Shown piece after piece: positions 10,883-19,176 of a DNA stretch of 43,624 nt (its first letter is position 1; each line of letters opens with the position of its first letter). Below the pieces are notes generated by a model that ran no database searches, was not told the DNA's origin, and was given only the letters and a program-made list of their open reading frames with translations. The position numbers and the translations under genes were made by a program. Source of the DNA: an uncultured Pelagibacteraceae bacterium (GTDB taxonomy: Bacteria > Pseudomonadota > Alphaproteobacteria > Pelagibacterales > Pelagibacteraceae). The stretch is taken from NCBI GenBank assembly GCA_902551215.1, contig CACDCI010000004.1:1-43624 (forward strand), written 5' to 3'.

Positions 10883-11297
10883 TTAAATATTACTCATCTT
10901 ATTTAATATTTTCCAGCACTTAGAATCAATAGACATTACGGATAATCTACTTTGTTTTATTAGAGACAAATGTCTAAGATATTTGTTTTTTTTAATATTT
11001 TCGAGCGTGACTGGTTTTTTAAGCATTTTTTTATATTTAACTTTAACAGAAACAAATTTTTTTTGTCTATCAGTTTTATCAATAAAAGCAGTTTTAATAA
11101 CTTCAACAATACCAACAATTTCTTTGCCAATATTAGAATGATAAAAAAAAACACAAATCTCCTTTTTTCATTTTTTTTAAATTGTTTGCTGCCTGGTAAT
11201 TTCTTACACCATCCCAGTCTGCACCTTTAAATCCAGCTTTTTTCTGTTGTTTAATAGACCAAACATTTGGTTCGGATTTTAATAACCAGTACTTCAT
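10883..11297 (-). pseudogene. EVE-domain protein, frameshifted by one base in an A/T run
   Basis: From the ATG at 11297 the minus strand encodes MKYWLLKSEPNVWSI, then GADWDGVRNYQAANNLKKM and KKGDLCFF, the hallmark start of EVE-domain proteins. EVE domains are related to PUA/YTH folds and bind modified nucleic acid bases. In the expected frame the next residues would be YHSNIGKEIVGIVEVI. A run of nine A on the plus strand (11143-11151) where eight are needed shifts the frame and gives an early stop. With one base removed, the gene encodes 137 residues, ending at a TAA at 10885-10883, which is the normal family length. It could be a real pseudogene, an assembly error, or a gene rescued by polymerase slippage. 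Confidence 0.85.
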
Positions 11298-11384: not shown

Positions 11385-12600
11385 ATGTCAAAAGTTGTTT
11401 TTTTAAATTTGGGAAAACATCCTGTTACCAACTCTTACTTAAAAAATTTAAAAAAAAAAAATAAAGAATATTTTTATAATTTAAAAATAACCTTTAATGA
11501 AAAAAATTTCCTTGTTTCTTTGTCCAGCTATGTAAAACCAACAATGATGTTTAATAACAAATATGCACATAGGGCATCATCTTCAAAAACTATGAGATTG
11601 CATTTTAAAAAATTATCGGATGAACTAAAAAAAAAAATAAAAAAAATTAAATGTCTGGAAATAGGCAGTAATGATGGAGTTTTCATAAAGAATTTTAACA
11701 AAAACGATACCGTAGCTGTTGAGCCTTGTTCAAATTTAGCAAAAATAACTAAAAATTTTGGATTTGTTACATACCCTGTTTTTTGGAATCAAAAAATTGC
11801 AAAAAAAATTTTAGAAAAACATGGAAAAAGAAATATAATATTTTCTGCAAATACCATTTCGCATATTAAAAATTTAAATGAAGTATTTTTATCTGTAAAA
11901 AAACTACTCGATAGAAATGGAATTTTTATTTTTGAAGATCCATACATTTTGTCAGTTTTAAAAAATAATTCTTATGATCAATTTTACGATGAACACGCTC
12001 ACCTATTCTCGTATTTATCTGCAAGTAGATTAATTGAAAAATTTAAATTAAGAATATTTGATGCAAAGATATTGGATGTTCATGGTGGTTCAATTAGATT
12101 TTACGTTTGCCATGAAAATAGTAAGTATAAAAAAAATAAGAATGTAACTAAGATAATTAACACAGAACTCAAAAATAAACTAAATAAACTTAAAACTTAT
12201 AAAAAAATTCGCTGATAGAGTTAAAAAATCAAAATTTCAATTATTAAAAATTTTAAGAAAAATAAAAAAAAAGAAAGAAATTATTATTGCCTATGGGGCA
12301 ACATATAAGTCATCAACTATTTATAACTACTGCAAAATCGATAATAATTTAATTGATTACATTATAGATAATACAAAAAACAAACAAAATAAATATGCAC
12401 CGGGATCACACATAAAAATTATATCTCCATCAAAAGGTCTAAATAAAAAAATTAAATATATATTTTTGTCTGCATGGAATTTTAAAAAAGAGATAATAAA
12501 TAAAGAATTAAATTTTTTAAAAAAAGGTGGAAGTTTTATTACACACGTTCCAAAGCCAAGAATAATTAAATTTAAAGATGTTAAAAAAGAAATTTCTTAA
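11385..12600 (+). pseudogene. Sugar C-methyltransferase (TylC3/EvaC-like), frameshifted by one base
   Basis: Two open frames join into a single family. The first (11385-12215) has the SAM-binding motif LEIGSNDGVFIKNF (about residues 90-103), VEPCSNLAK, and the family stretch QFYDEHAHLFSYLSASRL followed by DVHGGSIRFYV. The second, read in the next frame from about 12200 to 12600, is the C-methyltransferase C-terminal domain, with EIIIAYGATYKSSTIYNYC, DYIIDNTKNKQNKYAPGS and FITHVPKPRII. The join is a run of seven A at 12201-12207; six would give one uninterrupted protein of about 404 residues, the family's usual length. Characterised relatives add a methyl group to C3 of NDP-keto-deoxysugars. 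The zinc-binding cysteines normally found in the N-terminal domain are absent. Its end overlaps the next gene by 23 bases. Confidence 0.85.
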
Positions 12601-13849
12601 TTGGTTCGAGAGTAGTGACAAATCGTCAGAATCTAGAATTGATAATATTGATATAATTAATTTAAAAAAATGGAAATTTGAAAATAAATTTATTTATCAT
12701 GAAAGTAAAAGATTTTTTAAAATTAAATTTTATAAAATTTTAAGCAAATTTATTAAAAAAAAAATTTCTTATTCACCATTTATAGAGCAAAAAGAAGTAG
12801 GTATTTTAGGCATAATAGTTAAAAAATTCAAAAAAGGTTACAAATACTTACTTCAAGCAAAATTTGAGCCTGGAAATATAAATAAAATACAAATATCTCC
12901 AACTGTCCAAGCAACTAAAAGTAACTACACCAAAGTTCATAAGGGGAAAAAAGTAAATTTCATAGATTTGTTTTTTACAGAAGTCGAAAAAAAAAATTAT
13001 ATTTTTAATGCCAAATTACCAGAGCAAGGAACAAGATATGTAAATAAATTTAATCAAAATATTACAATAGAAGTAAAAAGTAAAAAATTAAATATTCCAA
13101 ATAATTTTCTATGGGTTTCAAAACAAGAAATTCATTCATTATTAAAAAAAAATAATCTTATCAATATGGATACTCTTTCAGTACTTTCTTGTATTGTAAA
13201 AAAAGAAACTTTTGATGTTCCATTGAATAGTATAAAAAAAATAAAAGATAAAATAAAATTTTATAATAATTCTCACAAAATAAAAATAATTTCTATTGAA
13301 TTAAAAAAATTAATGGGTTGGCGTTATCAAAATAAAAAAATAATAAATCTAAAAAAAGAATATTTTTCAATTATTGGGATTAGAACAACTGCAAAGTCAA
13401 GAGAGATAAAAATTTGGGACCAACCAATTTTGAAAGAATATCACAAAGGAATAGTTGGTTTTATAGTAAAAAAAATAAATAATAGTTTGCATTATTACAT
13501 GCAAATAGTCAAAGAACCGGGACATAAAAAATCATTATTGACTTCAAGTATCTGTATTAAAAATTTTTCAATTAAACACTATAAAAATAATTTTTTTATG
13601 AATCTTTTAAAAAAAAAAAATAGTTCAAAAATATTGTTTAATAAAATTCTTTCAGAAGAAGGTGGAAGGTTTTTTCATAAACAAAATAAAAATATTGTTA
13701 TTGAGTTAAAAAAAAATGTTAATATACCTGATAAAAAAAATTTTATTTGGGTTTCACATAATCAAATGGTTGATTTAATTAAAAAAGGAATTATTAGTAT
13801 TGAAGCAAGAAATCTATTTGTTTCTTATAACATTAAAAAAATACTATGA
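12578..13849 (+). CDS. NDP-hexose 2,3-dehydratase
   Basis: The 423-residue protein is built of two related halves (about 33-205 and 246-415), as in the EvaA/TylX3 family. The first half has HESKRFFKIKFY, LLQAKFEPGN (91-100), SPTVQATKSNYTKVH (107-121) and LPEQGTRY (148-154 region). The second has GIVGFIVKK, YYMQIVKEPGH and LSEEGGRFFH, but lacks the SPTVQ stretch. Family enzymes remove the C2 hydroxyl of TDP-4-keto-6-deoxyglucose, giving a 3,4-diketo-2,6-dideoxy sugar for the aminotransferase. Its start lies inside the end of the C-methyltransferase gene, and it shares an ATGA overlap with the aminotransferase gene, so all three are one transcription unit. Confidence 0.88.
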   Translation: MLKKKFLNWFESSDKSSESRIDNIDIINLKKWKFENKFIYHESKRFFKIKFYKILSKFIKKKISYSPFIEQKEVGILGIIVKKFKKGYKYLLQAKFEPGNINKIQISPTVQATKSNYTKVHKGKKVNFIDLFFTEVEKKNYIFNAKLPEQGTRYVNKFNQNITIEVKSKKLNIPNNFLWVSKQEIHSLLKKNNLINMDTLSVLSCIVKKETFDVPLNSIKKIKDKIKFYNNSHKIKIISIELKKLMGWRYQNKKIINLKKEYFSIIGIRTTAKSREIKIWDQPILKEYHKGIVGFIVKKINNSLHYYMQIVKEPGHKKSLLTSSICIKNFSIKHYKNNFFMNLLKKKNSSKILFNKILSEEGGRFFHKQNKNIVIELKKNVNIPDKKNFIWVSHNQMVDLIKKGIISIEARNLFVSYNIKKIL

Positions 13850-14982
13850 TTAAAGTTTGGGATTATTTACCAGAATATAAAAAATATAGAAAAAGTTTTT
13901 TAAATGCTATTGATGAAGTATTTAAAAGTTCAACATTAATATTTGGACCAAAATTAAATAAATTTGAAGATAATTTCAAAAAATATATTGGAGTAAAATA
14001 TGGATTAGGTGTTGGCAACGGAACAGATGCTTTATATATAGCGATGAAAGCACTAAATATAGGAACTGGAGATGAAGTTATAACAACCTCAAATACTGCC
14101 GTACCAACTGTCACTGCAATTGTTAATGCTGGTGCTATCCCTGTATTTGTAGATGTTAATGATTATTATTTAATCAATACAAATTTGATTGCTAAAAAGA
14201 TCACAAAAAAAACTAAAGCAATTATACCTGTTCATTTATATGGTCAATCATGTGAAATGGATGAAATAAATAAAATAGCAAAAAAAAATAATCTGTATGT
14301 TATCGAAGATTGTGCACAATCACACGGAGCCGAATACAAAAAAAAAAAAACTGGATCACTAGGAAATATTGGTTGTTTTTCATTTTATCCTACAAAAATA
14401 TTAGGAAGCTATGGCGATGCTGGCTTTATAACAACTAATGATAAAAAATTATTTGAAAAAATGATGAGAATTAGATTTTTGGGAATGGAAAGAAAGAAAA
14501 TGTCATCAGGTCATTGGAACGGAAAATATTATGCAGTAGAACATGGGACAAATTCTAGATTAGACGAAATTCATGCCGCAATACTTTTGATTAAATTAAA
14601 AAATTTAGAAAAAAATATAAAAAAAAGACGACAAATAGCAAAAAGATATTATAAAGAATTAAAAAATACGGGCTTGTTATTGCCAGAAGAAAATAAAAAA
14701 AATAAACATGCTTATTATATTTATGTAGTTCAACACAAAAAAAGAAATAAAATAATGTCCGAGCTAGTAAAGAAAAATATCCATTTAAATATTAGCTACC
14801 CTTGGCCAATCCATATTATGAAAGCATATAAAAAATATGCACTTAGGTCATCTAAAGATCTTAAAAAAACCAATTTTTTCTCAAAAAAAATATTCTCACT
14901 ACCTATGTATCCAGAACTTACATTAAAAAAACAAAAATACACAATTAATTCACTAAAAGAAATTCTCTCAAATTTAAGTTGA
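13846..14982 (+). CDS. DegT/DnrJ/EryC1 family sugar aminotransferase
   Basis: The 378-residue protein is a PLP-dependent aminotransferase of the DegT family. It has GVGNGTDALYIAMKAL (residues 55-70), EDCAQSHGA (154-162, pyridine-contacting Asp155 and Gln158) and CFSFYPTKILGSYGDAGF (177-194), with Lys184 as the Schiff-base lysine. Such enzymes aminate keto-sugars bound to nucleotides. Next to a 2,3-dehydratase and a C-methyltransferase, amination at C3 is the best inference, as for EvaB. It overlaps the dehydratase stop by ATGA. Its 3' end runs 9 bases into the convergent SDR gene. Confidence 0.93.
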   Translation: MIKVWDYLPEYKKYRKSFLNAIDEVFKSSTLIFGPKLNKFEDNFKKYIGVKYGLGVGNGTDALYIAMKALNIGTGDEVITTSNTAVPTVTAIVNAGAIPVFVDVNDYYLINTNLIAKKITKKTKAIIPVHLYGQSCEMDEINKIAKKNNLYVIEDCAQSHGAEYKKKKTGSLGNIGCFSFYPTKILGSYGDAGFITTNDKKLFEKMMRIRFLGMERKKMSSGHWNGKYYAVEHGTNSRLDEIHAAILLIKLKNLEKNIKKRRQIAKRYYKELKNTGLLLPEENKKNKHAYYIYVVQHKKRNKIMSELVKKNIHLNISYPWPIHIMKAYKKYALRSSKDLKKTNFFSKKIFSLPMYPELTLKKQKYTINSLKEILSNLS

Positions 14983-15789
14983 AAATTTTTTAATTATTTC
15001 AGATAAAAAAAAATCAAGATTATTTTTTGGTACAAATTTATATTCTTTTTTAATTCTAGATATATTAATTATTGGTTCATCATATTTTATTTTTTGATTT
15101 GAATAAATTATTTTGCAATTTGTTAGCTTTTTAATTACCAAAGCAATTTTTTCTATTGTGACTCTTTTATCTGAGGCTATATTATAAAGTCTATACTTAC
15201 TTCTATTAACAATTTTAATTATAATACCTATGGCATCATAAATATTTAAATAATTTTTTTTTGACTTTTTATTAATTGAAATATTTATTTTTTTATTTTT
15301 TTTTGAATTTCTAATTAAATTAGGAAGAAGATAAGTTTGTTTTTTAAAATTAAATCCATATAAATTTGACAATCTTACAACTTTAATATTTTTATTTTTT
15401 TGTGACAAACAAAGGTTTTCAGAAGAAGCTTGTAGTAAATTATAAAAGTAATCTTTCGAATTAATATTTATTTTAATGTTATCATTTTCTTTTGTATTTT
15501 TAGAATTTAAATAAACTCTTGTGCTAGATATGAAGATAAATTTTTTAAATTTGTTTTTTAATAAGATTTTAGATAATAATTTTAAATTCGACTCAATTCC
15601 CTTCTCAGGATTTTCTAGTACATTGTCGGAGCCAATACAATAAATCACATTGTTTAAATTTTTAGAAAATTTTATCTTATTTCTTGAAGGGAGAAAAACT
15701 TCGTATTTTTTTTTTTTTAAATATTTAACAATATTACTTCCTAAAAAACCACTGTGTCCAAAAATAGTATACTTAATATTTTCTTTCAT
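14974..15789 (-). CDS. Extended SDR (NAD-dependent epimerase/dehydratase family), probable sugar ketoreductase
   Basis: The 271-residue protein has the N-terminal nucleotide-binding motif GHSGFLG (residues 11-17), the FIFISSTRVY strand around 85-93 with the catalytic Ser, and VRLSNLYGF. The active-site pattern Tyr-x-x-x-Lys reads YNLLQ here (Tyr116, Gln120), so the catalytic lysine appears replaced by glutamine. In the epivancosamine pathway the last step is a 4-ketoreductase of this family (EvaE), and that role is proposed from context. It is on the opposite strand to the dehydratase and aminotransferase and diverges from the GT4 gene. If the Lys is truly missing, activity may be altered or lost. 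Confidence 0.8.
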   Translation of the reverse strand: MKENIKYTIFGHSGFLGSNIVKYLKKKKYEVFLPSRNKIKFSKNLNNVIYCIGSDNVLENPEKGIESNLKLLSKILLKNKFKKFIFISSTRVYLNSKNTKENDNIKININSKDYFYNLLQASSENLCLSQKNKNIKVVRLSNLYGFNFKKQTYLLPNLIRNSKKNKKINISINKKSKKNYLNIYDAIGIIIKIVNRSKYRLYNIASDKRVTIEKIALVIKKLTNCKIIYSNQKIKYDEPIINISRIKKEYKFVPKNNLDFFLSEIIKKFST

Positions 15790-15822
15790 AGATTAATATG
15801 ATTTAAACATTTAAATTTATAT

Positions 15823-15851
15823 TTGTTCAGTTGCTAATTTTATTTTTATAA
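15823..15851 (+). promoter_or_regulatory. Probable promoter of the GT4 glycosyltransferase gene
   Basis: TTGTTC at 15823-15828 and TTATAA at 15846-15851 are separated by 17 bases. The predicted start near 15858 falls inside a tandem repeat of AGTATTTTAA (15851-15860 and 15861-15870), which runs up to the GTG start codon at 15872. The leader would be about 14 bases and has no purine-rich ribosome binding site. Confidence 0.4.
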
Positions 15852-15871
15852 GTATTTTAAAGTATTTTAAA

Positions 15872-16957
15872 GTGAAAAAAATTTATTACATCGCCGAATT
15901 AAATTTGCCAAATCCATCAGCATATTCAATTCACGTAGTAAAAATGTGTGAAGCAATTAAAAAAACAGGTGCAAATGTTTGTCTATTAACAATTAATGGA
16001 GATAACCGATCATTAATTTCAAATTTCTATAATATAAAAGAAAAATTCAAAATTATTTCAATTTTCAAAAAAAAAATTAATTTAAATTTTTTTTTTAGAA
16101 TTTTTTTTACATTAAATATTTTAATAAAGACTAATAGTGCTAATTGTATATATATTTCAAGAAGTGTAGTTTTTGCGTTGATTGCATCTTTATTGAGAAA
16201 AAAAGTAATATTAGAATTGCATCATGAAATTTCTGGTTTTTCTAAAACTCTTTATTTTTTTTTAAAATATACTTATCAATTAAAAAATTTAAATTACATA
16301 TTCACTAGTAAAAAATTAAATAATATTTATAAAATTGAGAAAAATAATAATATAGTTTTGGATAGCGCTGTGAATATAGAAGATTTTAAAATAAAAAAAA
16401 AATTTAAAAGATTTAAAAATACATGTGTATATATTGGAAGTTTTTTCCAAGGAAAAGGTATTGAACAAATTGTAAGACTAGCAAATCTAGATGAAAAGAT
16501 GAAATTTCACCTTTATGGCGAAAAAAAATTTTTAAAATTTCAAATTAACAATAAAAATATAAAGATATTTAATCATAAAAGTTACAAAAAAGTACCTAAT
16601 ATTTTATCTTCTTATGATGTTGCACTTATGCCTTATCAAAAAATTGTAAAAGGCAGATCAAGCATTGCGATACAAAAATATATGTCGCCTATGAAAATGT
16701 TTGATTATATGGCAGCTGGAGCAGTTATAGTTGCTTCAGATCTGAAAGTTTACAAACATATTTTAAAAAATAATTTTAATTCTAAACTAATTCAATTAAA
16801 CAATGATAATGAATGGATTAAAACAATAAACAAACTTTTTACCTATAAAAACAAAAATAAATTTCTTAAAAAAAATGCTTACAAAACTGCAAAAAAATAT
16901 ACTTGGGATAATAGAGTCAGAAAAATTTTTAACAAATTTAAAATTGAAGTTAATTAG
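15872..16957 (+). CDS. GT4-like glycosyltransferase
   Basis: The 361-residue protein has a GT-B architecture. The N-terminal Rossmann half starts IYYIAELNLPNPSAYSIHVVKM, shown in part as NLPNPSAYSIHVVKM, with a glycine/serine-poor acceptor loop. The second half has VYIGSFFQGKGIEQIV (about 187-202) and the donor-binding segment YMSPMKMFDYMAAGAVIVAS (about 270-289), the family's E-x7-E-like region. Family members transfer a sugar from a nucleotide donor to a glycan or lipid. Within this island it is the likely enzyme that attaches the deoxyamino sugar. It begins with GTG; no upstream in-frame ATG gives a better start. Confidence 0.85.
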   Translation: MKKIYYIAELNLPNPSAYSIHVVKMCEAIKKTGANVCLLTINGDNRSLISNFYNIKEKFKIISIFKKKINLNFFFRIFFTLNILIKTNSANCIYISRSVVFALIASLLRKKVILELHHEISGFSKTLYFFLKYTYQLKNLNYIFTSKKLNNIYKIEKNNNIVLDSAVNIEDFKIKKKFKRFKNTCVYIGSFFQGKGIEQIVRLANLDEKMKFHLYGEKKFLKFQINNKNIKIFNHKSYKKVPNILSSYDVALMPYQKIVKGRSSIAIQKYMSPMKMFDYMAAGAVIVASDLKVYKHILKNNFNSKLIQLNNDNEWIKTINKLFTYKNKNKFLKKNAYKTAKKYTWDNRVRKIFNKFKIEVN

Positions 16958-16985
16958 TTTTATTAATAATTTTTTTAACCTATTT

Positions 16986-17981
16986 TTAAAGATTAAATAT
17001 TTTTTGTATTGTCTGATAGTTAAGATTTTTTTTATTATATTTTTTTACAAAAAAATTAAATAATTCATTTAAATTTTCTTTAAACAAAAGGAAATTTAAT
17101 TTGGAAATCATATCTTCAGATGAATTAAATGTTAGTCTATCTGTTAAATCATTAAAAAGATTTTTTGAATTCTTGTTGAATGCTTGAAATAATATCCCTC
17201 CACTTTCAATTATTTGTATACTTCTTGTGTACAATGTTTCTTCACCATCTTTTGCCATAAAATCTACACAGATGTTTCCTTGATAAAAATTTGCAATAGA
17301 ATTTGCATCATAATTACTTGGATATGATTCTGGATATATTTTTTTTAAATCATCTCCAATTAATATACATTTTTTTCCAAAAACATTTTTAATTTTTTTT
17401 ATAAGCTCAAGTCTCAGTAATATCCTTAGATTTATGTAAATTTTATGTTTTTCAATGTTGCTTAAATTATCTATATTTTGATTTTCCCAAAAAACTTCAT
17501 TATCTAATAAAGATAGGTTTTCAAAAATTTCTAATTTATTTTTGTTCCATATTTTTAAAGAGTTCTTATCCTTAATTTCGCTAACTTTCATTGCTATTAC
17601 AATTTTTGGACTACTAAAATTTATACTTTTAGCAAGATCACATGGATAAAAATTAATCAAATTATTTTTTCTTGAAAATAAATTTGATGCTGTTACAAAA
17701 TTATTTTTGTATTGTTGAAAATCTTTATTAATTTTAAAGTCTGTACCTCCAAACCAAATATTAATCGAATTTTTTTCGTTGCTTAAAAAAGGTAAGCCAT
17801 CACATGATAAGAAAAAAAATTTTTTTGATAAATTTGTCATTAATATTATTTTTCCAATATAGCAAAGGATTGGACCTGATAAGTTTATGATTTTAAAATT
17901 TTCAATTTTTTTACATTTTAGAAAATTATTTAATGATTGCCTTCTAAATTTATATTTAAATATAAAAAATATATACTTCAT
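16986..17981 (-). CDS. Glycosyltransferase-like protein, uncertain family
   Basis: The 331-residue protein has no signal peptide or membrane helix that stands out. The clearest feature is near residues 238-263, CVDFMAKDGEETLYTRS followed by IQIIESGGILFQ. This resembles the C-terminal donor-binding region of CgeB-like and other GT-B glycosyltransferases, where a Pro/Thr-Arg-x-hydrophobic-E segment precedes a gly-gly turn. Residues 204-212 (KCILIGDDL) look like the start of the second Rossmann domain. It closes the sugar island on the tsaD side, convergent with the GT4 gene. The family assignment is tentative; a second sugar-transfer step is the simplest guess. Confidence 0.55.
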   Translation of the reverse strand: MKYIFFIFKYKFRRQSLNNFLKCKKIENFKIINLSGPILCYIGKIILMTNLSKKFFFLSCDGLPFLSNEKNSINIWFGGTDFKINKDFQQYKNNFVTASNLFSRKNNLINFYPCDLAKSINFSSPKIVIAMKVSEIKDKNSLKIWNKNKLEIFENLSLLDNEVFWENQNIDNLSNIEKHKIYINLRILLRLELIKKIKNVFGKKCILIGDDLKKIYPESYPSNYDANSIANFYQGNICVDFMAKDGEETLYTRSIQIIESGGILFQAFNKNSKNLFNDLTDRLTFNSSEDMISKLNFLLFKENLNELFNFFVKKYNKKNLNYQTIQKIFNL

Positions 17982-18052
17982 AATTTTATTTTAAAATCTC
18001 TTTAAAACTTAAAATCTTCATAATTTTTTTAGATATCATGTTGTAGTCTTAA

Positions 18053-19126
18053 TTACAATTTAACTCCCGCACCTTTCAAAAACTTTGCTTTTTCATCTAG
18101 TGGCCATCTTGGTTTTGGAGAAAAATCTAAACTGTTAAACTTGTTTTTTTTAAATTTTTCTAAACCAACCATTGCAATCATTGCGGCATTATCTCCACAT
18201 AAACTAGTTGGAGGAAAAATAGGATTGAAATTTTTTTCCCTACAAAGATTTGTTAGATTTTCTCTTATTTTTTTATTTGCAGCCACACCTCCTGCTACAA
18301 CAAAAGTATTATCTTTACTTCCATTAATTTTTTTAAATTCTTCAAATGCAAATTTACTCTTTTTATTTAATATTTCTTCAACAGTTCTTTGAAATGAAGC
18401 TGCAAGATCATATTTTTCTTGATTAGTTTTAATTTGTTTAGAAATTTTTAGAACTGCAGTTTTAAGACCAGCAAATGATAAATTGCATCCACCTTTATGC
18501 ATTATAGGTTTGGGTAATTCATATTTTTTTGGATCGCCTTTTTTTGCGAATTCTTCTATCCTTGGGCCACCTGGAAATTCTATTCCAAGTAATTTTGCAG
18601 TTTTATCAAAAGCTTCACCAACAGCATCATCAATTGTTGTTCCTAATCTTTTATATTTACCCAAACCTTGAACGTTTAAAAATTGAGTGTGACCACCTGA
18701 AATTAAAAGTAATAGATAAGGATAGTTTAATTTTGAATTTAATTTAGGACTCAAAGCATGTCCTTCGAGATGATTAACTGCAATAAATGGTTTGTTTAAG
18801 GAAGAGGCTACAGATTTTCCAAAACTAAGACCAACTGCAAGACAGACAATAAGACCAGGGCCAGCGGTGGCTGCTATTGCATCAAGGTCTTTAAACTTAA
18901 CACCACTTTCATCAATTGCTTTTTTTGTTATTAGATCAATTTTTTCAATATGTGATCTTGCGGCAAGTTCAGGAACTACTCCACCAAACTCTTTATGCAC
19001 ATTTACTTGACTTGATACAACATTAGACAATATGATGGGAATACCTAGATCATTTTCTTGAATTACTGATGCTGCAGTTTCATCACAGCTTGATTCAATT
19101 CCTAAAATTATATGTTTTTTTTTCAT
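18053..19126 (-). CDS. tsaD: tRNA N6-adenosine threonylcarbamoyltransferase
   Basis: The 357-residue protein begins MKKKHIILGIESSCDETAAS, the canonical TsaD start. It carries the metal-binding NHLEGHA motif, LLLISGGHTQ, and GPRIEEFA, and a C-terminal VAGGVAANKKIRE and PTSLCGDNAAM. It transfers threonylcarbamoyl to A37 of ANN-decoding tRNAs, working with TsaB and TsaE. The frame is open 16 codons further upstream, but the ATG at 19126 is chosen because family members start at this point. It diverges from hemC across a 50-base gap, an arrangement common in alphaproteobacteria. In many relatives gpsA follows it; here the sugar island lies there instead. Confidence 0.96.
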   Translation of the reverse strand: MKKKHIILGIESSCDETAASVIQENDLGIPIILSNVVSSQVNVHKEFGGVVPELAARSHIEKIDLITKKAIDESGVKFKDLDAIAATAGPGLIVCLAVGLSFGKSVASSLNKPFIAVNHLEGHALSPKLNSKLNYPYLLLLISGGHTQFLNVQGLGKYKRLGTTIDDAVGEAFDKTAKLLGIEFPGGPRIEEFAKKGDPKKYELPKPIMHKGGCNLSFAGLKTAVLKISKQIKTNQEKYDLAASFQRTVEEILNKKSKFAFEEFKKINGSKDNTFVVAGGVAANKKIRENLTNLCREKNFNPIFPPTSLCGDNAAMIAMVGLEKFKKNKFNSLDFSPKPRWPLDEKAKFLKGAGVKL

Positions 19127-19176
19127 TAAATTAATTTTTATTAGTAATACAATCTCAATATAAGAATAAAGCATAA

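Follow-up and report, generated by a model that had tools for sequence, protein, structure and literature searches.

A one-base extension of an A run most likely reflects an amplification or assembly error in an ordinary SAR11 NDP-sugar C-methyltransferase gene

Our analysis of a 43,624-nucleotide stretch of an uncultured Pelagibacteraceae genome (hereafter, the window) centered on a sugar methyltransferase gene that is interrupted by a frame break. The host is a SAR11 bacterium, as the relatives recovered were nearly all Pelagibacteraceae records, mostly single-cell genomes. An upstream open reading frame on the forward strand (11385-12215) encodes the zinc-binding region, the methyltransferase region, and the start of the C-terminal domain, while the remainder of that domain lies in the +1 frame (12208-12601, forward strand). 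Across these two abutting halves, PF08421, PF13489, and PF08484 (Methyltransf_13, Methyltransf_23, and Methyltransf_14) were found in order and above the cut-off, as in NDP-sugar C-methyltransferases. Judged by these domains, the product is an ordinary NDP-sugar (deoxysugar) C-methyltransferase, and the family together with the neighboring genes predicts C-methyl transfer to an NDP-sugar as its activity. The next gene, encoding an NDP-hexose 2,3-dehydratase (12578-13849, forward strand; PF03559, E 5e-95), overlaps the 3' end of the methyltransferase gene by 24 bases, and is followed by a DegT/DnrJ/EryC1 sugar aminotransferase gene (13846-14982, forward strand; PF01041, E 1e-110); both are companions expected from deoxysugar pathways. 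The order methyltransferase-then-dehydratase recurred in 40 of the 43 SAR11 loci carrying the methyltransferase, and epimerase and glycosyltransferase genes were also present nearby. The set of genes in this cassette suggests that it provides a surface glycan with a deoxysugar. The low-G+C deoxysugar/glycosyltransferase cassette as a whole (11385-19174) sits between conserved genes, with acs and an EVE-domain gene on one side and tsaD, hemC, and hemD on the other, and its gene content differs from one SAR11 genome to another, resembling a variable surface-glycan island. In a record titled Chloroflexi MAG NAT118 (L105:1506-6207), one methyltransferase shares 57% identity with the SAR11 gene of the window, and a second, more distant methyltransferase lies on the other strand; a misassigned contig or lateral transfer may perhaps account for these two genes.

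The interruption coincides with a run of seven A (12201-12207), shortly 3' of which the upstream frame closes with TGA. Our Pfam search placed columns 2-45 of PF08484 in the frame of the upstream half and columns 46-160 in the +1 frame (118 bits, E 3.4e-34), so that the two partial matches abut exactly across frames. Removing one A yields a C-methyltransferase of 404 residues in a single frame, with the stop at 12599-12601. The original prediction that the two halves are one C-methyltransferase split by an extra A, with good similarity on both sides of the junction, was thereby borne out. Moreover, 43 SAR11 reference open reading frames each independently located the shift of reading frame in the window copy to the seven-A run. 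The +1 frame remains open for 130 codons, a length with a chance probability of about 6e-7 given the base composition. Both the Pfam match and the frame check showed the C-terminal half to be free of decay, which rules out an old pseudogene. An independent C-terminal gene was likewise ruled out, because the +1 frame offers no usable start, with no ATG or GTG at all and no TTG before 12466. A ribosomal -1 frameshift on the run was also rejected, as the -1 frame meets a stop soon 3' of it and does not encode the conserved domain. The gene contains runs of up to 12 A, and the seven-A run is among its shorter ones.

A tblastn search with the joined 404-residue protein, followed by the removal of duplicates, provided 57 distinct SAR11 orthologs spanning the run, all of which were read in one frame (0/57 broken). 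Many of them encode Tyr/Phe-Lys-Lys-Phe at this position, as in TAT AAA AAA TTT with six A, while others use AAG, TTA, or further codons and have no run. Two orthologs had a stop within the aligned stretch, located at its extreme end, where their proteins terminate. Comparison of run lengths among relatives had been proposed as one means of recognizing an assembly error, and none of the 57 orthologs carried a seventh A; the extra base is therefore private to the window copy among the orthologs compared, the closest of which is only 61% identical in protein, so that the comparison is one between, not within, species. Among 300 genomes of the genus, the nearest DNA copy was 68% identical. The one-base frame break is the only feature that sets the window gene apart from NDP-sugar C-methyltransferases in general, the SAR11 orthologs all being intact.

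The frame break was not an isolated case in the assembly, which comprises 806 kb in 61 contigs at 27.8% G+C and is 58.6% complete. Alignment of the proteins of a one-contig relative (G297) to this genome, covered in full but for 467 bases at the end of contig C12, gave 625 gene places over 549 kb, of which nine showed frame changes, eight of these at homopolymers. On the coding strand, and with genes named by NCBIfam, the affected runs were A6 in nrdA and metG, T7 in nuoL, T7 in lpxD (one base short), G6 in purM, T8 in ftsW (beside the best-scoring position), and A8 in a gene for an unnamed protein, while the ninth break, on contig C35, rested on a weaker match. A break in an A11 run of ihfA was found in addition to these nine. 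The homopolymer breaks in nuoL, lpxD, ihfA, metG, nrdA, purM, ftsW, and the unnamed gene lie at C1:69386, C1:47541, C10:272, C10:21035, C19:1859, C23:10233, C3:5618, and C44:3077. The eighth homopolymer break of the nine gives the window itself a second slip of the same kind, in the EVE-domain gene (10892-11297, reverse strand) adjoining the acetyl-CoA synthetase gene; a single surplus base in the A9 run at 11143-11151 (T9 on the coding strand) divides columns 1-48 and 49-145 of PF01878 between two frames, as was also evident from alignment with the G297 ortholog. In total, 11 breaks were counted (the nine, ihfA, and the methyltransferase), and 10 of the 11 had one base too many (P 0.012). No error model tested here explains this strong +1 bias. 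As controls, the reverse test gave 2/612 in G297, and the same test applied to 44 SAR11 loci of other genomes gave 2/249. Homopolymer breaks were more common in the assembly than in these controls (8/625 versus 2/861, P 0.02), while the excess of all breaks was borderline only (9/625 versus 4/861, P 0.053). Within G297, an acyl-CoA ligase homolog was disrupted at nine consecutive G (L175:243-253, corresponding to G297:C1:140243-140253), a run that is rare at 29% G+C and that could be either a real switch or an error.

The reading we favor, with a probability of roughly 0.86, is that the seventh A is a one-base error introduced during whole-genome amplification, sequencing, or assembly, the draft being low-input and single-cell-like. 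The methyltransferase gene of the living cell would then be intact, with six A, and the homopolymer would have slipped during one of these steps. The technical origin is suggested by like one-base slips that affect about ten further genes of the assembly, many of them essential; together with the frame break itself and its absence from the relatives, these slips point to an error, not a genuine mutation, at this particular A. Many such SAR11 genomes come from a single-cell workflow that retains contigs of >2,000 bp and that, when benchmarked, showed 3.0 indels per 100 kbp (PMC6122165; PMC11247762). With a smallest contig of 2,039 bases and its 58.6% completeness, the present assembly is probably a single-cell genome from such a workflow. 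At the published rate, the 549 kb checked would be expected to contain about 16 indels, and nine were seen, so that a technical source would be sufficient. The break thus resembles homopolymer indel artefacts of low-input drafts in being a one-base run change private to one assembly, in being accompanied by numerous comparable cases in core genes of that assembly (nuoL, metG, nrdA, purM, ftsW, lpxD, ihfA, and others), and in occurring at a rate compatible with the benchmark (PMC6122165), although the present assembly is biased toward extra bases, whereas the published figure gives no sign.

The main rival to an error is a private mutation of this single cell or strain, in which recent replication slippage would have truncated the methyltransferase without rescue and left a surface sugar lacking its C-methyl branch. 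A runs are prone to mutation, surface-glycan genes are often dispensable, and both the privacy of the break and the undecayed C-terminal half would fit a very recent event. However, such a mutation leaves the equal slips in nuoL, metG, purM, nrdA, ftsW, and others unaccounted for, and it is unnecessary given a shared technical cause; we therefore regard true inactivation as unlikely. Given their functions, NuoL, MetG, NrdA, PurM, FtsW, and LpxD could not all be lost in one free-living cell, and the breaks in their genes therefore imply either a technical source or the rescue of every one of them.

Rescue by slippage would require that the genome truly carry seven A and that RNA polymerase, or a ribosome shifting by +1, return a fraction of the product to the correct frame. 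The original prediction had raised this on the grounds that very AT-rich genomes tolerate such runs, and the low G+C content of this genome, the location of the frameshift in an A run, and the undecayed remainder of the gene do recall the poly(A) frameshifts described as rescued in the insect endosymbionts Blochmannia and Buchnera, which can be conserved between species (PMC3017870). In contrast, the run examined here is short, its frameshift is shared by no relative, and insertion by slippage would not restore the frame. RNA data from Escherichia coli and Buchnera indicate that slippage in A/T runs consists mostly of single-base insertions and grows with run length, that deletions in runs are rare, that insertions in G/C runs were not found, and that no frame restoration by slippage was seen in either organism (PMC5574713). 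Because the polymerase mostly adds bases and the methyltransferase gene needs one removed (or two gained), slippage would be a poor means of rescue, and at seven bases the run is shorter than the approximately nine at which many genomes begin to show selection against slippage in coding runs (PMC1088944). The like slip in purM lies in a G/C run, and a ribosomal -1 shift on AAAAAAA would yield the wrong frame. No paper in the collection searched dealt with transcriptional slippage and Pelagibacter together. Taken together, these observations run against the proposed rescue in an AT-rich genome, which appears highly improbable.

Equally improbable is phase variation, by which the length of the run would turn the methyltransferase gene on and off within a population. 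The switch would act on a surface-sugar gene through a change of a single run unit, but longer A runs occur within the same gene, the orthologous position consists of two lysine codons that are often AAA AAA and often others, so that no repeat is maintained, and the off state occurred in no ortholog. Of the explanations originally listed, sequencing error was thus the one that gained support, and inactivation, switching, and slippage rescue did not. The least probable reading is that of a SAR11 species truly possessing seven A here as well as the extra bases in nuoL, purM, metG, and others, with the frames restored in expression even at short runs; if true, it would mean a free-living bacterium tolerating genome-wide frameshifts in essential genes, and such real and rescued breaks would be very surprising, with nothing here favoring them.

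The locus is therefore most likely an ordinary gene affected by an assembly or amplification error, with no real biological feature at the run. The wider message is one of caution, as this single-cell-like SAR11 draft contains roughly ten one-base frame breaks among its checkable genes, and for that reason, in drafts of this sort, no gene split within an A run should be taken for a pseudogene, switch, or site of recoding without reads.
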